Positions 36,361 through 46,062 of a stretch of DNA of 64,000 nucleotides are shown one piece after another (the stretch's first letter is position 1; each line of letters begins with the position of its first letter). A program made the position numbers and the translations under genes. A model generated the notes under the pieces. It searched no databases and was not told the DNA's origin. It was given only the letters and a program-made list of their open reading frames with translations. Source of the stretch: SAR86 cluster bacterium SAR86B (GTDB lineage: Bacteria > Pseudomonadota > Gammaproteobacteria > Magnimaribacterales > D2472); assembly GCA_905182885.1 (NCBI GenBank), contig CAJJCW010000001.1:186001-250000 (forward strand), in the 5' to 3' direction.

Positions 36361-37630
36361 TTAATCTCTATAAGTATTTGGTTTATCAAGGTTCTTAATA
36401 TACCTATCTCTCAGCCTAGTTGATCTAGTAGTAAGATCCATATCAACACCATTAATAAATACTTTTTCAGGCATGCTAGACGGCTCAAGAGGGTCTGCTT
36501 CCCAAATTACTAAATCTGCAATATTACCTGGTTTAATTAGTCCTCTTCTGGCGATATTAAAAGAGTCTGCTACGTTGCTAGTCAAGGCCCTAATAGCTCC
36601 GCCATAAGACATTCCATTTGCAACAGCTATTCCAGCACCCTGTCTAACCAGGTGAGAGTTCTGGCCTCCTCCTGAAGAAAATATTAACTTTATTCCTTCT
36701 GCCTCAAGCCTACTTGATAGATTTATATTAGAAGCAAGTTCATCAAAGGAACCAGGTATATTATTGATTGGATTAATTATTAAAGGCGTATTACTACTCG
36801 ATATCTGCTTAGCCACTAGAGAGGCTTCTTGAGCGCCCATAATTATTAAATTAAGATTGTACTTTTTCTTCATCTCTAATAGCTTAAGAATATCTGTTGC
36901 TCTATTTGCTTTAATAATAAGTGGAAGTTTGTCATCAATTAATCTGAAGAGTGCTTTGACATCCCTAGACTGAAGTTCTAGATAATCCGCTAAAGGTGAA
37001 TCATTAATTATTTGATTGATATCTGCATTTGATTTCATATCCCTTACTATCTAGAGACGATGCAAAAGATAAAATATCATCAGTAAGTGCAAGCATTTCT
37101 GATCTTGATGAAGAGCTGCTTCCTCCGATACGTCCTATCATTACCATATCTGGCAGGCTATCAATTTGAAGACTTCCATTTAATGTAAAGAATGATCCAA
37201 GACCTCCAATAGGGCTTGAGGTATCTCTTGGCAGGGTTATTGCAGAGGTGATTCCGTTTGATCTATTCCAAGGAATTCTTGTTGAGTTAGGATTAAAGGC
37301 ATCGTGAATACTAAAACCAATACTATAAATACTAGACTGATCGTCCTTGGTAACGCTTAATGCTCCAATTTCTACTATTCCAATATCGGTATTAGAGACT
37401 ATAAATCCTGGAGTAACTATTTTACCTTCCGCATCTATTATTGTGTCGCCTTGTATTGATGATTTGGATACTTTTTTAATGACTCCATCTTCAATAAGTA
37501 TATTGCCAGTAAAAGCATTATCGTTAATTCCGTCGAAGATCATTGCATTTTTAATAACAATACTTTGAGCTTCGATAATATAAATATTAAAAATTAAAGC
37601 TGCTGAAAATAATATCTTTGTATAGTTCAT
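36361..37630 (-). CDS. amidohydrolase-family protein, second of a tandem pair (frame broken once; HxH motif absent)
   Basis: Two overlapping reading frames form one protein of about 422 residues. The frame changes at about 37034-37052, probably at the CCC run 37041-37043. It has a signal peptide (MNYTKILFSAALIFNIYIIE), the composite N-terminal beta domain (AMIFDGINDNAF, GKIVTPGFIVSNTDIGIVEI) and the C-terminal GLIKPGNIADLVIWEADPLE typical of imidazolonepropionase-like amidohydrolases. Where relatives have the metal-binding HxH this protein reads VSNTDIG, so it may be a catalytically dead or altered partner of the protein encoded upstream. Its start overlaps the stop of that gene (TAATG), suggesting coupled translation and a complex. 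Substrate unknown. Confidence 0.78.
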
Positions 37631-39032
37631 TATTCTTGTATCCTATTTTTATTTGGATTCATGATTCCGATATCGAAATCTGAGCTTGGCTCAATGCCAG
37701 CCTCTTTATCAAAAGCCTTGGCGCCATCTATGTAGACTTTTTCGGCTAGGGCATAAACACTAAATGGGTTTTTCGACCAGAGAACTACATCAGCATTTTT
37801 TCCTACTTTTAAAGAGCCCGTTTGATCATATATTCCAGCTGCTTTTGCTGGGTTGCTTGTAATCCATTTCATTGCTCTTGCTTTTGTTATTTCAAAGCCT
37901 GCTTTTAGTCCTGCAGACAGTGCTTTCGATGCCTCTTGATTAAGATGTTGGATCCCTATCGCGTCGTCTGAATGAACTATGGCGCAACCAGTTCCATTTC
38001 TTGCTTGATCAACTATGGCTACATTTGCCTGAACCATGTCATAGGCTTCATGTTTAAAGCCCCACCAATCTGCCCACATGGCTGCACAAATATTATTTTC
38101 AGCCAATAAGATCGGCTATCTTGTATGGCCTCAACAGCATGATGGAAGGCTGTAATTTTATAACCAAACTCGTTAGCAATATCTATCATCATCGCCATTT
38201 CTTCAGCTCTATAGCAGTGATTCTGAATTAGTATTTCGCCTCGCAATACTCCAGCAAGGGTTTCTAGCTCTAGATCTCTTGTTGGCTTGTAACTGAGTTC
38301 TTTTGCTTCTTCTGACTTTGATTCATATTCATCCAAACGACTTAAATAGGCCTCTGCCTTAATCCAAGATTTTCTATAGCCAGCAATATTACCCATTCGA
38401 GTTGAAGGTGCCTGACTTTTATTTCCATAAACTCTTTTTGGATTTTCTCCACAAGCCATTTTTAAAGAATGAGGTGCATTAGGAAACTTCATAGAGTTAA
38501 TGGTATTTCTTTGAACATTCTTTGCCGTTACTCCCCTTCCTCCAATCAAGTTAGCTGATCCAGGTAAAACATGAAAAGAAGTTATGCCACCCTTCAAAGC
38601 TAGAGCAAATTGAGGATCTTGAACCCATATAGAATGCTCAGCCCACACATCTGCTGTTACCGGACTTGTAGATTCATTGCCGTCTGAGCTTGTAGTTACT
38701 CCGGGAGCAGAATAAACGCCCATATGCGAATGGATATCAATAATCCCTGGTGTGATCCATTTTCCAGCAGCATCAACCACTGTAAACTCAGATGAAGCAG
38801 GAAGATCTTTACCTATAGCAATGATCTTTCCATCTTTTATAAGTAAATCAGTATCTAGAAACTCATTACCTTCTCCGTCATAAATATTGGCACCTCTGAA
38901 CAAAGTATTAGTTTGAGGCATCGGCTCATACGTAGACTCAAAGGGAGTGCTATTGGCAGCTGAGGAAATATTTATAAATGATAGGAGTATTATAAATAAT
39001 GTAGTTATCTTTAATTTTTTGTAATTTTTCAT
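37630..39032 (-). CDS. exported amidohydrolase, imidazolonepropionase-like (two single-base frame breaks)
   Basis: A 466-residue protein is recovered if one extra base is removed at 38127-38128 and one at 38103-38104; the join then reads AVEAYKIADLIAENNICAAM. It has a signal peptide (MKNYKKLKITTLFIILLSFI...SSA), GANIYDGEG, the metal-binding GIIDIHSHMGVY, ITAFHHAVEA, MWADWWGFKHEAYD and GCAIVHSDDAIGIQHL. The C terminus has GSLKVGKNADVVLWSKNPFS. Family members hydrolyse cyclic amides, or peptides for some exported ones; the substrate here is unknown. It is the first gene of the pair and keeps the metal ligands its partner lacks. Confidence 0.85.
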
Positions 39033-39343: not shown

Positions 39344-40399
39344 ATGAAATCATACAGAGTAATAGAAAGCGGAGCTCCTCTCATAGAGTGTGAACTTAAT
39401 ATTCCAACTCCTAAGAATAGTGAGGTTTTAATTAGAACAATAGCCTGCGGTGTTTGCCATACAGATATTCATATTCATGATGGTTTCTTTGATATGGGTA
39501 ATGGTAAAAAGATGGCATCTAGACTCAAAGAGCCCTTAACAATGGGTCATGAAATTTTTGGAGAAGTTGTTGCTATTGGGGAAAGTGTAAAAGATATTGA
39601 GATTGGCAAGAAATTTGTAGTTTATCCTTGGATTGGATGCGGTGAGTGCAAATCTTGTATAGAAGATAATGAGCATGAGTGCGGTCCATTGACTGCTCAA
39701 AATCTTGGGGTATCGGTTGATGGAGGCTACGGAGAATTTGTTTTGGTAAAGGATCCAAAATATCTCTTTGATGCCGGTGATACTCCTGATGAACTAGCAG
39801 GAAGCTATGCTTGTAGAGGTCTTACTGCTTATAGCGCACTTAAAAAAGCAAATCCAAAACTAAATGACAAAAAACTAGTGATTATTAGTGCCGGTGGACT
39901 GGGGTTATTAGCAGTAAAAATTGCACAAGCTGCTTTTAATATAAATCCAATTGTAGTTGATATTGACGATGCAAAACTTGCAACTGCAAAAGCTGCAGGC
40001 GCTTCAGAAGTAATCAATTCTTTGCATGAAGGAGCCAAAGAAAGAATTATCGAGCTAACTGGAGGTGGTGCAACTGCGGTTATTGACTATGTTGGAGCAG
40101 AGGCATCTGTAAGATTTGGTTATGATTTATTTGGTTTTAATAAAAATGGCCTGTATATATTAGTTGGTATGTTAGGTGGTAAATTTGAAGTGCAACTTCC
40201 ATTAATGACATTTTCATCAAGAACTCTGAAAGGAGTCTATCTTGGAAGTATTAAAGAAATGGCAGAGCTTATGGAACTTGTTAAGGCTGGAAAAATAGAA
40301 CCCGTTCCTGTTGAAACTAGACATATATCAAAAGTTAATGATACTATCGCAGAATTAAAGGCTGGAAAAATAAAAGGATTAGTCTCACTTATACATTAA
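39344..40399 (+). CDS. zinc-dependent alcohol dehydrogenase (MDR superfamily)
   Basis: The 351-residue medium-chain dehydrogenase has the catalytic zinc ligands in GVCHTDIHIHDG and MGHEIFGEVVAIGESV. The four structural-zinc cysteines are in GCGECKSCIEDNEHEC. The Rossmann motif SAGGLGLLAVKIA is followed by the acidic VDIDDAKL, which suggests NAD rather than NADP. It oxidises alcohols or reduces aldehydes; the substrate is not evident. It lies just upstream of the putative metal-uptake genes but probably has no functional link beyond using zinc. Confidence 0.9.
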   Translation: MKSYRVIESGAPLIECELNIPTPKNSEVLIRTIACGVCHTDIHIHDGFFDMGNGKKMASRLKEPLTMGHEIFGEVVAIGESVKDIEIGKKFVVYPWIGCGECKSCIEDNEHECGPLTAQNLGVSVDGGYGEFVLVKDPKYLFDAGDTPDELAGSYACRGLTAYSALKKANPKLNDKKLVIISAGGLGLLAVKIAQAAFNINPIVVDIDDAKLATAKAAGASEVINSLHEGAKERIIELTGGGATAVIDYVGAEASVRFGYDLFGFNKNGLYILVGMLGGKFEVQLPLMTFSSRTLKGVYLGSIKEMAELMELVKAGKIEPVPVETRHISKVNDTIAELKAGKIKGLVSLIH

Positions 40400-40404
40400 T
40401 TGAC

Positions 40405-40677
40405 ATGAAAAGCTTAAACAATAAATTATTTATTTTCTTTGCAGCAGTTCTTTTTGTAACAGCGGTTTCATCTGATCCATTAATCCATGATCATCTTGAT
40501 AGCAGTAACTCAACAGTCGAATGTGAGTATTGTGAGAATAAAACATTCGATGCCTCAGAAGCAAAAACTCAAGTCGATAATACCTTTATATCTGAATTAA
40601 CTTCTTGCGAAGTAAATAATGATTTCTTTTCCCCTTCTTTCCAAAATTTTCAATCAAGAGCTCCACCAAAAAGTTAA
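40405..40677 (+). CDS. small secreted His/Cys-containing protein, possible DUF2946-like
   Basis: The 90-residue protein begins with a signal peptide (MKSLNNKLFIFFAAVLFVTA). A mature part follows with HDHLD and CEYCENKT, a plausible metal-binding set, and it ends in SRAPPKS. Small periplasmic proteins with an H-x-H/C-x2-C pattern and a terminal R-[AG]-P-P motif occur next to metal-related TonB receptors, often labelled DUF2946. That assignment is tentative. It lies 40 bases before the ZnuD-like receptor and may bind or pass on zinc in the periplasm. Confidence 0.6.
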   Translation: MKSLNNKLFIFFAAVLFVTAVSSDPLIHDHLDSSNSTVECEYCENKTFDASEAKTQVDNTFISELTSCEVNNDFFSPSFQNFQSRAPPKS

Positions 40678-40717
40678 ATTTCTAGTTTTTTAATTTAATT
40701 TTTTTTAAGGAGTTCAT

Positions 40718-42905
40718 ATGAACAAATATTTATTGTCGCTAATAACTTTTAGCGTATTTACTAACGTTTTACTTGCTCAAGATATGGAAGAGGTTGTTGT
40801 AACCTCTTCTTTAATTGACTCAAGTGAAATTACTAATCCTCTATACGTTATAGATGGGGATGATATTAATGATGACGCAACAACTAGCTTAGGTGAAGCA
40901 GTCGATAGTTATCTAGGTGTTTCTATAGCAGACTATGGCTCTGCTGTTGGACAGCCAATTATAAGAGGCATGTCAGGTCCAAGAGTTAAGATTCTTAAGA
41001 ATGGAATGGTAAACCGAGATGTTTCTGGACTTGGAGCCGATCATTTAAATGATGTTGACTTAAACAATATTGAGCAAATTGAGATTGTAAAAGGTCCTTC
41101 CTCGTTGCTATATGCTAATGGAACAATTGGCGGAATTATTAATGTTGTTGATGATTGTGTTGCGCCGAAAGATTTCGATAAGCCTGAACTTTTTGTAACG
41201 CTTGAAAGCCAATCTGTTAATGATGGTGATACGCAAGCCGTCAATTATAAAAACAATATAAATGGCTTTAATGTTAATTTTGGTTACAAAGAATCTAAGT
41301 TTGGTAACTTCGATGTTCCAAATGGTGCCGTCATTCATGAAGAAGAAGATCACGATGAGCATGAAGAAGAAGGTCATGATGAACATGAGGAAAACTTAGG
41401 TTATATAAATAATTCTGATTATGCGGTTGAGGCTACAAAGTTTGGTATTTCAAAGGTTGGGGACTGGGGTTATGTCGGTTTCTCACTGGATAGTCTTCAA
41501 AGTGTTTATGGCATCCCTTTTCATGGAGATGAGCATGAAGAAGAAGGTCATGATGAAGCATGGAGATGAGCATGAAGATGAAGAGGAAGAACATGAAGAA
41601 GAAAGAATTTTCTCAACAACTGATTCAGAATCTTTTACTATCAAGGGTTTGTATAACGTAAATGGTAATTTAATTAATTCGATTTCTTATAACTACCGAG
41701 ACACGGATTATTCTTTGGTTGAAGCACATGCAGAAGAGGAAGGTCATGATGAACATGAGGAAGAAGATCATGAAGAGCATGCACCTACTCTATTTAAAAC
41801 TGATTCTGCAGAATATGGGGCTATCTTTGATATATCTAACGATAATATGACACAAAAAATTGCATTAAATCTTGTAGATGAATCTTCATCAATTGTTGGT
41901 GAAGAAGCATTTATGAATCCCGCAAAAAATGAAGAATTTACTCTTGGTTACTATGCGAGTAAAGATTTAGAAGCTTTTAAGGTTGATTTTGGTTTTAGAT
42001 TAGATCAAATCGATAGAACTGGAAGTGTTACTGATGAAGATCATGGAGATGTGGATTATTACAGTATTGATGATACTACTAATAGTTTTGCAGTTAGTTT
42101 AGGAAGAGAACTAAGTAATACTTTAGATATGAGCATCGGTTATGCGAGTGTAGAAAGGCTCCCTTCAGTTATTGAGCTTTTTATGAATGGACCTCACTTA
42201 GCAACTGGAAGACTTGAAACTGGTAATCCTAATTTAAAAAGTGAAACATCAAATAATTTTGATATCACCTTTAATTTTGACAACGGAGATTATTATGGTA
42301 TCGCAAGTTTTTATATTAATGATGTAGATAACTACATAACTCTTATGGATGAAGATGACGAACATGAAGATGAGCATGGAGATGAGCATGGAGATGAGCA
42401 TGGAGATGAGCATGGAGATGAGCATGGAGATGAGCATGGAAATCTAATTCACGCGAATTACGTTCAAGAAAATGCAGAGTTTGATGGATACGAATTTGAA
42501 TTTGGAAGAATTCTAAGCCTTGGGTCTGGTGAATTAACTTTATCCTTTGGTAGAGATGTCGTTAATGCAAAATTCTCAGATGGGCACTATGTTCCAAGAA
42601 TCAATCCTTCAAGAAACATCTATTCTCTATCATATGCGCAAGATGATCTTGTCTTTAGGCTAAGTATGAAGGACGTTGACAAGCAAAATGACTTTGGTGA
42701 AGGTGAAACAGCTACTGATGGATATCAAATGCTAGACACAAGACTTACTAAGTCATTTGATATAAGTGGTAAGAGCAAGCTAAGGGTCTCTTTATTCGGG
42801 AGAAATCTTCTTGACGAAGCCGCTAGAAATCATGCTTCTTTTGTTAAGAATGAGGTGCCATTGCCTGGAAGAAATTATGGAATTAAATTTAACTTAACAT
42901 ATTAA
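40718..42905 (+). CDS. ZnuD-like TonB-dependent receptor with His/Asp/Glu-rich loops (frame broken once)
   Basis: Joining the two reading frames at 41556-41557 (one extra A) gives about 728 residues. It has a signal peptide (MNKYLLSLITFSVFTNVLLA), a plug domain (MEEVVVTSSLIDSS, GQPIIRGMSGPRVKILKNGM, VKGPSSLLYANGTIGGIINV), and a beta-barrel ending in GIKFNLTY. Four loops are strings of His, Asp and Glu: near 41334-41390, 41526-41610, 41726-41785 and 42349-42443. Such loops are known in zinc receptors such as ZnuD, so zinc is the likely ligand. An AAGGAG site lies 6 bases before the ATG. A MerC-like gene follows. Confidence 0.88.
42369..42440 (+). repeat. six perfect 12-base tandem repeats inside the TonB receptor gene
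   Basis: The unit GATGAGCATGGA is repeated six times without change and encodes (DEHG)6 in one of the acidic/His loops. Units of 12 bases keep the frame, so copy-number change would lengthen or shorten the loop but not switch the gene off. Related GATGAGCATGAA blocks recur around 41526-41580. Confidence 0.97.
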
Positions 42906-42929
42906 TTAATTTCATTAAAAATATATATT

Positions 42930-42960
42930 CTTAAAACCCATTATATAAATGGGTTTTAAG
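42930..42960. terminator. bidirectional-type hairpin terminator after the TonB receptor
   Basis: Perfect 12-base inverted arms CTTAAAACCCAT (42930-42941) and ATGGGTTTTAAG (42949-42960) enclose a 7-base AT loop. The A-run before and T-run after the CCCAT/ATGGG core make it a plausible rho-independent terminator in both directions. The MerC-like gene begins 17 bases later, so termination may be partial. Confidence 0.65.
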
Positions 42961-42977
42961 ATATTTAAATTAAATTT

Positions 42978-43379
42978 ATGATAAACACTCAATTAGCATC
43001 CGATAAATTGGCAATAATGTTATCTACGATTTGCGTTATTCATTGCTTTTTTTTTCCTTCTTTAATAATACTTTCCGCTGGTTTCTTTTCGTTCTCCTTA
43101 GAGAGCGAATTAATACATAGTTTAATTTTATTATTAACACTCCCAATTAGTATCTTTGCTTTAGCTCATGGATATGAGAACCATAAGACTATAACTTTTC
43201 TTTTAATAGGCATTTTTGGATTAACGATGCTTGTTGCTGCAATTCTTCTAGGTGAGAGTTTTTTTGGAGAATTTGGAGAGAAAGGGTTAACTTTAATGGG
43301 TTCTTTTTTTGTTGCATACTCGCACTTTAATAATTATAAAATTTGTTTAAAATCAGATTGCTCCTGTCACGATAAATAA
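42978..43379 (+). CDS. MerC-domain inner-membrane protein
   Basis: The 133-residue protein has four hydrophobic segments. In the first is CVIHCFFFPS, matching the Cys-containing metal motif of MerC transporters; the cytoplasmic tail ends CLKSDCSCHDK with three more cysteines and a His. MerC-family proteins move metal ions such as mercury across the inner membrane. Chromosomal members next to ZnuD-like receptors are thought to handle zinc. The position after the receptor supports a shared metal role; direction and ion are inferred. Confidence 0.75.
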   Translation: MINTQLASDKLAIMLSTICVIHCFFFPSLIILSAGFFSFSLESELIHSLILLLTLPISIFALAHGYENHKTITFLLIGIFGLTMLVAAILLGESFFGEFGEKGLTLMGSFFVAYSHFNNYKICLKSDCSCHDK

Positions 43380-43458: not shown

Positions 43459-46062
43459 ATGCATATAAAACTTAGATTCCTATATTTAATATTATTATCA
43501 TCCTTTGTCTCTTCAGATCTTCAGATTGAAGAGTTAATTGCCACAGGAACTCTTTTAAAGAATACAGAACAAGATTCCTCCCCTGTAGATGCTATTTCTG
43601 AAGAGGATTACAAAAACTTTAATATATCTAATATAGCTGAAATCAGTAAATATATAAGCTCATCTTCTGGCTCGCATTTTCAAGCAAATACCCTGGATGG
43701 AGTAGATCAAGGAATGGCTGCAATTACCTTAAGAGGGTTAGATCATTCAGCCACCCTCCTCTTAGTCAATTCAAAAAGGCAAACTTTTGCTGGCACCCCT
43801 TCTAATGAGGGAGAAGGATATATTGATATAAATATCATTCCAGAAATTGCTCTGAAACAAGTCGAGATATTGAAAGAAGGGGCAACATCTCTCTATGGGT
43901 CTGATGCCGTTGCTGGTGTTGTTAATATGATCACACATACAGATTTTAATGGGCTTAAATTTCAGGCTGGTCACCAAAAAACGTCAAACTATAATCAAAA
44001 TGACTCAACAATGGGAATACTTTATGGATCTCAATACAGCAAAGGTAATTATGTATTGGGAATTAATATTTTAAAAAGATCCCCCTTGTCTGCATCAGAA
44101 ATACCAGGAATTGCTGAGCTCGCAATAAGTGGTTTAGGCAGATCATTCATAATATCTGGTGATGCCTCTTTATCTACTGGAATTTGGGCTGGCGACTATT
44201 CTAAGGGACAAAAAATTCCAGATCCAAAATGTCTAGCTAATGGAGGAGTTTTAACAAACCTAACAACATGTGGTTTCTTGTATGGGGATAGGTTTAATGT
44301 AGTTAATGACGAGGATCATATTAAATTTTATTCAAACTTGAATCATCAAGGTGAAAATTTTTTGTATGAATTAATATTTATGTCTTCTCAAGTAAATGTA
44401 AATGATAATCCTCAATCTCCTTCTTACCCCGCCTTGCCATTTCTCTCAAGAATGATTCAGCCTGGAGAAGGAGGAAACCCCTTTAATGTAGCTGTAAAAT
44501 GGTTCGGACGTCCTTTAGGATCAGAGGTTGCCTCTCCAAATTCACCAAAAAAGATTAAGCAATATCATCTAAGTCAAACAATGTACTTAACTCTTAAAGA
44601 TGAAACGGATATGGAGCTTTCTTTCACTAAAAGCGATCATTCAAATGATCATTTCAGACCAGATATAATTGATTCTAGGTTTTTAGATTCCATCAATGGA
44701 ACAACTTTGGGCTCCTCTGGAGGGGATATGGTATTTTGGAATCTTTTTGATTCATCGCAAAACTCACAAGCACTTATTAATTATGTAAGAGGCGCGGAAA
44801 CTTCTACCAAACAAGCTGGTCTGGAAAGTTTAGATCTTATATTTAGATCTAATTTATGGACTGATTACTCATTGGCTTATGGAGTTCAAGTGAATAAAGA
44901 GAATTTAAATATCTCATATGACGAAATAAGTAGAGCAGAATTTGATGAAAATGGAAAAATAATAAAAACTGCAGATCTATTCTTCTTAGGCGGAGGGAAG
45001 AATGTATCTAAATCAAGAAATAAATATGCCAGTTTTTTTGAGATTGAAAAAAAATTTATAGATAGCTTAGATATTCGACTCGCAGGAAGATATGAAGATT
45101 TTGGAAATGACTCATCTTTTGATCCAAAGTTATCTTTTAAGTTCAATCCAATAGATAAAGTTTCAATTAGGGCCTCAAAAAGTTCTTCTTTTTCGATGCC
45201 TTCAATGGCGCAGATGTTTTCAAGTGATATTAATCTTGGAAGCGTGAGAGACTTCAATGGAAACTCTCCCTTTGTTAGACAAGCACAGATTGGCAATCCA
45301 AATCTCAAACCTGCCACATCAAAAAATAGCAATCTTGGGGTAATATTTAATAATATAAACTCTAAATTTAGCATTGATTTCTGGAATATTGATTATAAAA
45401 ATAGAATAGAAGTTGAAAGCTCTCAGGCTATGCTTAATTTAAACCCTAATGGATCAAGTATTACAAGAAATTCTAACGGAGACCTAATAGGAGTTACTAC
45501 TACCTACTTTAATGAAGAAAGCACTGAGGTCTCTGGAGTTGATGTGAGTTATGAAACTTTAATTAATTTAGAAAGTAAAGGTAGGGTGATGTTTGCAATT
45601 AAAGGTACCTCTATAAATAAATTTTTAACACCAGAGATTAAAGATGAGGATGGAGAAGAGCACATACAGATGGCCAATAGAGTTGGTAAATTTAATTATG
45701 ATGCTAATACACACTCATTACCTAAAAAAAGAATTAATGCTTTCATAAACTGGAATTTTAGAGATTATGGCTTTAATTTAAATGCTCGCCATGTAGATGG
45801 CTATTCAAATGAAAGGCCTATAAATGATCTTGGGTTAACCTATGGATATAAAAATAAAGTTGACTCATTTCTTGTATTTGATTTTTCTGCAAGCAAGTTA
45901 ATTAAGTTAAATAATGGTGAGATGGATCTAAAATTTTCTATTATTAATATTTTTGATGAGTCAGCGCCGAGACTTTACGATGCTCCTGATTTTAGTTTTG
46001 ATTCAAGGGTGCATGATCCAAGAGGAAGAATAATTGGCTTAAATCTTGAATATAGAAAATAA
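43459..46062 (+). CDS. TonB-dependent outer-membrane receptor
   Basis: This 867-residue receptor has a signal peptide (MHIKLRFLYLILLSSFVSS) and a plug domain with IEELIATGTLLKNTEQDSSP, GMAAITLRGLDHSATLLLVN and LKEGATSLYGSDAVAGVVNM. A long barrel ends in RGRIIGLNLEYRK, with an aromatic residue three places from the end (Y) rather than at the last position. The plug resembles the large iron-siderophore/sugar type receptors of marine gammaproteobacteria, but the substrate cannot be predicted. It lacks the acidic/His loops of the preceding receptor. The frame is intact. A strong terminator follows. Confidence 0.9.
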   Translation: MHIKLRFLYLILLSSFVSSDLQIEELIATGTLLKNTEQDSSPVDAISEEDYKNFNISNIAEISKYISSSSGSHFQANTLDGVDQGMAAITLRGLDHSATLLLVNSKRQTFAGTPSNEGEGYIDINIIPEIALKQVEILKEGATSLYGSDAVAGVVNMITHTDFNGLKFQAGHQKTSNYNQNDSTMGILYGSQYSKGNYVLGINILKRSPLSASEIPGIAELAISGLGRSFIISGDASLSTGIWAGDYSKGQKIPDPKCLANGGVLTNLTTCGFLYGDRFNVVNDEDHIKFYSNLNHQGENFLYELIFMSSQVNVNDNPQSPSYPALPFLSRMIQPGEGGNPFNVAVKWFGRPLGSEVASPNSPKKIKQYHLSQTMYLTLKDETDMELSFTKSDHSNDHFRPDIIDSRFLDSINGTTLGSSGGDMVFWNLFDSSQNSQALINYVRGAETSTKQAGLESLDLIFRSNLWTDYSLAYGVQVNKENLNISYDEISRAEFDENGKIIKTADLFFLGGGKNVSKSRNKYASFFEIEKKFIDSLDIRLAGRYEDFGNDSSFDPKLSFKFNPIDKVSIRASKSSSFSMPSMAQMFSSDINLGSVRDFNGNSPFVRQAQIGNPNLKPATSKNSNLGVIFNNINSKFSIDFWNIDYKNRIEVESSQAMLNLNPNGSSITRNSNGDLIGVTTTYFNEESTEVSGVDVSYETLINLESKGRVMFAIKGTSINKFLTPEIKDEDGEEHIQMANRVGKFNYDANTHSLPKKRINAFINWNFRDYGFNLNARHVDGYSNERPINDLGLTYGYKNKVDSFLVFDFSASKLIKLNNGEMDLKFSIINIFDESAPRLYDAPDFSFDSRVHDPRGRIIGLNLEYRK

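Follow-up and report, generated by a model that had tools for sequence, protein, structure and literature searches.

SAR86 bacteria rank with the most abundant heterotrophs of the sea, and how they may acquire zinc is the question raised by the locus treated here, which lies in a 64,000-nucleotide stretch of a SAR86B contig (hereafter, the window). The original prediction for this DNA was that three adjacent rightward genes, encoding a small secreted His/Cys protein, a ZnuD-like receptor and a MerC protein, form an outer-to-inner-membrane path for zinc, possibly a minimal one lacking ZnuABC. As the usual zinc importers are missing in SAR86, the locus suggests how zinc may be taken up, and it provides concrete candidates for this uptake where ZnuABC and ZIP were not found in almost all of 61 genomes. 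Judged from its sequence, it would be a SAR86 zinc-uptake locus composed of ZnuD, the small protein and a candidate inner-membrane MerC of a distinct clade (HC-MerC, described below), a reading to which we assign a probability of about 0.62. The assignment of the locus to zinc is well supported, while the three-gene path proved only partly right: the zinc reading finds support for all three proteins, but transport by MerC can be proposed only tentatively.

The window genome comprises 1.05 Mb and is 85% complete, and the features of the locus are collected in Table 1. The three genes do stand in a row in the rightward direction, although the receptor is split over two frames, and since all three are conserved in relatives, they represent more than chance ORFs. 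The conserved neighborhood also takes in the upstream alcohol dehydrogenase and the second, downstream TonB receptor, after which come RNase R, a SpoU methylase and LpxC. The dehydrogenase gene ends only 5 nt before the small gene starts, thus the two are probably co-transcribed in the window's genus. In other SAR86 genera, an iron-type alcohol dehydrogenase occupies the place of the zinc-type enzyme (L274:4825-5958, L276:4630-5760 and L279:4500-5630, Pfam having been run on L274 only), and this exchange may serve to spare zinc. Regarding the second TonB receptor, it lies 3' of ZnuD, with or without MerC in between, in 24 of the 47 SAR86 loci with room for it, being at least as frequent there as MerC; in family f4 (L057, L061 and L078), it directly precedes MerC without ZnuD.

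Table 1. Features of the zinc locus and its flanks, in positions of the window.
Feature	Position	Strand	Basis
Zinc-type (MDR) alcohol dehydrogenase	39344..40399	+	PF08240/PF00107; synteny
Small secreted His/Cys protein, 90 aa	40405..40677	+	Signal sequence, HDH, CxxC, C-terminal SRAPP
ZnuD-like TonB-dependent receptor, N-terminal part	40718..41569	+	PF07715; 4rdr as best match; alignment
ZnuD-like receptor, C-terminal barrel part, other frame	41421..42905	+	PF00593; ZnuD profile; tblastn frames
12-bp tandem repeat, 6.5 copies, His/Asp/Glu-rich extracellular loop of ZnuD-like receptor	42363..42440	+	
Terminator-like hairpin, 14 pairs, 3' of ZnuD	42929..42961	+	
MerC-family inner-membrane protein, 133 aa, HC clade	42978..43379	+	PF03203; tree; alignment; model
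Second TonB-dependent receptor, CirA/FepA-like plug	43459..46062	+	

The receptor has the plug (PF07715) and barrel (PF00593) domains above their cut-offs, one in each half, and the predicted His/Asp/Glu-rich loops are present. Its likeness to ZnuD is borne out by the intact copy of a sister species (L038), which scores 132.8 bits against the solved ZnuD structure 4rdr, compared to 29.9 bits for the next solved receptor in a comparison that took in B12, heme, copper and siderophore receptors, and by the conservation of zinc ligands. The high-affinity zinc site of ZnuD is formed by Asp99, His100, Glu340 and His499 (PMC4557270), of which D99 and H100 align with a GADH motif in the N-terminal half and H499 with a GPH motif in the C-terminal half, and no SAR86 copy deviates at these three residues; the counterpart of Glu340 would lie in a Glu-rich loop that is too variable to be aligned with certainty, and three of the four ligands are then kept. 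The best NCBIfam model is NF038289 (zinc piracy ZnuD), with 210 bits against a cut-off of 950. This model is a narrow one, as a ZnuD encoded beside zur-znuACB (L263) also falls short of the cut-off, with 415 bits, and the window receptor is filed as ZnuD-like only. An ortholog, one per genome, occurs in 52 of the 61 SAR86 genomes; among the 31 more complete ones, 29 have it.

The small protein has an N-terminal hydrophobic signal and the HDH and CxxC motifs that had been pointed out, the latter reading CEYC. No Pfam or NCBIfam model matches it; DUF2946, suggested by the Cys and PP tail, was rejected, having no Pfam match. In 48 of the 49 SAR86 loci whose upstream sequence is available, that of the window among them, its gene is located 35-58 nt 5' of ZnuD, and this pairing is kept although the genes farther upstream differ between SAR86 genomes. 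An [RQ]APP pattern near the C-terminus and a His before a Cys are found in 48/48 copies, and the CxxC in 42/48, being absent in the other 6. When a SAR86-only profile was run over 369 gammaproteobacterial genomes, four distant matches were obtained outside SAR86, three of them in znu-type loci with an outer-membrane protein gene next; in the locus of the homolog L133, znuA and zur adjoin. The fourth match, L134, was discarded as a false positive within an unrelated gene. After the profile had been widened, each of the nine labelled homologs outside SAR86 was found to precede either ZnuD (L262 and L263) or the outer-membrane protein of a znu-type locus (the remaining seven). In L263, zur-znuA-znuC-znuB is divergent from the small protein and ZnuD, with a Zur box bearing one mismatch, and in L257 the Zur box is exact. 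No homolog of the small protein was matched among plasmids. The outer-membrane protein itself, of about 380-490 aa and without a significant Pfam match, is encoded ahead of znuA in many znu operons of Gammaproteobacteria (L256-L261, L264-L266 and L268-L270) and is probably a zinc-related porin.

In addition, a zigA-type GTPase gene directly follows ZnuD in two SAR86 genomes (L295 and L297), the L297 protein scoring 702.5 bits, above the NCBIfam ZigA cut-off of 600, and L295 bearing the same gene. ZigA is a zinc metallochaperone, a COG0523 zinc GTPase. The zinc role foreseen for the small protein gains support from its homologs beyond SAR86, which precede ZnuD or znu operons, and the small protein and ZnuD can be assigned to zinc with high confidence.

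Conservation of the whole trio in related genomes, which had been put forward as a check, stood for the small protein and ZnuD but not for MerC, whose gene directly follows ZnuD in 19 of the 61 SAR86 genomes (genera g1, g4, g8 and G057), 49 having both genes. Moreover, 40 of 48 SAR86 loci have a stable hairpin (z below -3) after ZnuD, regardless of the next gene, and in the window it lies between the receptor and MerC. A fixed single operon of the three genes does not agree with this sparse adjacency and with the terminator-like hairpin in between, and the conserved unit is the pair of the small protein and ZnuD. As the hairpin follows ZnuD, the core transcript would probably carry this pair, plus the dehydrogenase in the window's genus, and would end at the hairpin; MerC, being separated from ZnuD by it, would need read-through or its own promoter.

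The MerC ORF matches PF03203 with an E-value of 3e-25 (89.2 bits, against a gathering score of 27.6) and bears the expected Cys motifs, CVIHC within helix 1 and C-x4-C-x-CH in the C-terminal tail. Its AlphaFold model (pLDDT 78) consists of helices only, and the fold search with this model gave no match of E below 0.5. The family is present in 54/61 SAR86 genomes, G052 being among those in which it was not detected. A second, shorter paralog (G000:C2:139050-139376, L040) is without the C-terminal Cys tail, adjoins a cupin-like gene and has a conserved position in many SAR86 genomes; given this neighbor and the lack of metal genes nearby, the second copy of the window genome was set aside as a metal gene.

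For a wider view of the family, 58 MerC loci across the class were surveyed with 6-kb flanks, counting FUR/zur, znuA, the linked outer-membrane protein and ZnuD as zinc genes, which occur within 2.5 kb of MerC in 19 of the 58 loci and beyond 3.5 kb in one. The MerC tree splits with 100/100 support into a mercury clade, having the CAMCFPA motif and merA neighbors, and an HC clade, having C-x-x-H-C, and SAR86 MerC falls in the HC clade and not in the merA-linked one. Zinc neighbors within 2.5 kb are found for 18 of 37 HC loci, spread over 14 families, compared to 1 of 21 in the mercury clade (Fisher p 5e-4, which is only indicative because the loci are partly related). Among the FUR proteins encoded beside MerC, seven of the eight tested are clearly closest to Zur, that of L201 being ambiguous. 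The clearest case is L200, where the outer-membrane protein, ZnuA, ZnuB, Zur and MerC are all encoded in one direction. The zinc link of the MerC protein, at first a guess from its cysteines, now has a footing in the zur/znu neighbors of its clade, thus a clade that Pfam files under mercury resistance is linked to zinc by gene neighborhood, and this is the most interesting part of the locus. A limited literature search brought up no relevant paper linking MerC to Zur or to the uptake of zinc. HC-MerC probably belongs to zinc homeostasis; that it imports zinc is a more tentative proposal, which we put somewhat below an even chance.

The idea of a route without ZnuABC agrees with the gene content. 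The ABC-3 permease (ZnuB) is present in only 2 of the 61 SAR86 genomes and absent from 59, ZIP (PF02535) in none of the 61, and ZnuA was not found in the window genome (85% complete); among possible zinc carriers, the search covered ZnuABC and ZIP. The ABC-3 permease of one genome (G009) is probably not zinc-specific, as suggested by its LysR-type neighbor. The single FUR-family protein of the window genome, at that completeness, is Fur, with 172.9 bits, above the cut-off, compared to 26.7 for Zur, and its gene is located between grpE-dnaK and a bamE-like gene. In line with the earlier failure to see a convincing Zur operator, neither the Zur box (GTTAT-N3-ATAAC) nor the Fur box shows any excess over shuffles upstream of the small gene in SAR86, and since the only FUR-family gene found is Fur, the check by Zur boxes cannot work here. 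Outside SAR86, HC-MerC is encoded in several genomes without ABC-3 and ZIP (G103, G243, G202, G424, G314, G313, G408 and G201), and in the first four a Zur-type gene adjoins MerC or lies near it. Across the class, HC-MerC is only weakly associated with ABC-3 absence (15/30, compared to 110/339; p 0.07).

In the proposed route, the ZnuD-type receptor would catch Zn(II) with its His/Asp/Glu-rich loops, and the metal would then pass a buried D-H-(E)-H site on its way in, a TonB-powered step, as the ZnuD structure suggests, the ligands being placed by alignment. The small His/Cys protein would most likely act as a periplasmic zinc acceptor or delivery factor working with the receptor, its fixed RAPP tail suggesting a docking signal. 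HC-MerC, which bears a CxxxC pair in its first helix besides the C-x4-C-x-CH tail, would be the best candidate for bringing zinc into the cytoplasm, where it may stand in for ZnuABC or ZIP, not found in nearly all SAR86.

Many metals are bound by His-rich loops, and OprC and heme receptors are distant relatives of this receptor, so that copper, iron or heme might be imagined as its substrate and the zinc label as wrong. This is very unlikely, however, as the match to ZnuD lies about 100 bits above that to every other solved receptor, three of the four ZnuD ligands are retained and homologs neighbor zigA and zur-znu. Even less credence can be given to a mercury or cadmium transporter standing next to ZnuD by accident: the name of the Pfam family speaks of mercury resistance, but the SAR86 MerC is set apart from MerA-linked MerC with full support, no mercuric reductase (MerA) above the TIGR02053 cut-off is encoded in any of the 61 SAR86 genomes, and the HC clade has zinc-gene neighbors. 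A further concern is the receptor frame, broken near 41555 within the His/Glu repeat of the His-rich loop, which yields the two ORFs of Table 1, the homology of the C-terminal part starting at about 41580. A gene truly broken in the window strain, either as a pseudogene or through a phase-variable loop, in a decaying locus, would fit the position of the frameshift in a low-complexity His/Glu repeat and the likewise broken frames of the receptor gene in L148. It is nonetheless unlikely, considering that the two halves retain 69-73% identity to the sister copy and that the amidohydrolase gene pair at 36361-39032 (- strand) has one frameshift in each gene relative to the sister species. With ZnuD, these are three broken frames close together in one assembly, and because the neighboring conserved pair is broken in the same way, a sequencing or assembly indel is likelier than gene death. 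In sister species the frame is unbroken, at about 700-760 aa, and most SAR86 genomes have an intact copy, while several other assemblies also show breaks in this gene, the contig itself ending inside it. The length of the tandem-repeat loop differs between species.

The role of MerC is where the zinc-uptake reading meets its most serious competitor, in which the small protein and ZnuD form a zinc unit of the outer membrane, a general carrier performs the import, and HC-MerC buffers, senses, exports or traffics zinc. In its favor, HC-MerC stands beside znuA-znuB-zur in L200, where there is no need for a further importer, and is then not simply a substitute for ZnuABC; MerC also sits behind the hairpin; and two near-complete SAR86 genomes (G037 and G039, 96-97% complete) have ZnuD with MerC not detected, indicating that it is not the sole inner-membrane route in all SAR86. 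Against it, MerC is retained almost throughout the streamlined genomes that have neither ZnuABC nor ZIP, it lies near Zur-type genes in the four genomes named above, from which ABC-3 and ZIP are both absent, and known MerC acts in the uptake direction: titles cited in PMC6416403 speak of mercury-type MerC acting in the uptake of Hg(II) and of increased cadmium accumulation when MerC is expressed in plants. We regard this competitor as a real possibility that does not quite reach even odds. At the other extreme, HC-MerC could be an undescribed family of inner-membrane zinc importers, encoded beside zur, which together with the small protein and ZnuD makes up the whole zinc route of SAR86, ZnuABC, ZIP and Zur having been dropped; this is rather doubtful as it stands, and, if true, such importers would be widespread next to zur in Gammaproteobacteria. 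Whatever the part played by MerC, an unnamed family of small proteins is encoded with zinc receptors and znu operons throughout the class.

Compared to ZnuD of Neisseria meningitidis (PDB 4RDR/4RDT/4RVW) and its homologs in Acinetobacter and Pseudomonas, the SAR86 receptor has the same full-length plug and barrel, shares the D-H and H ligands and the His/Asp/Glu-rich loops, and has homologs in zur-znu loci. It differs in its longer repetitive loops, in the small protein gene in front and in its NF038289 score, far under the cut-off. With regard to ZigA, a copy above the cut-off follows ZnuD in SAR86 family f3 but is not beside it in the window's own genus. The SAR86 MerC belongs to the same Pfam family as MerC of mercury operons, both being small all-helical membrane proteins with a Cys pair in helix 1 and a C-terminal Cys motif; however, SAR86 has CxxHC where mercury MerC has CAMC, and its type forms a separate clade with zur, znu or ZnuD neighbors instead of merA, SAR86 having no MerA above the cut-off. 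Finally, the Zur-regulated znuABC operons of Gammaproteobacteria encode, inside or beside them, distant homologs of both the small protein and HC-MerC. Unlike these operons, and unlike the ZnuD system, the window genome is one in which Zur was not found, and SAR86, almost always without an ABC importer, keeps the small protein and ZnuD together with MerC.
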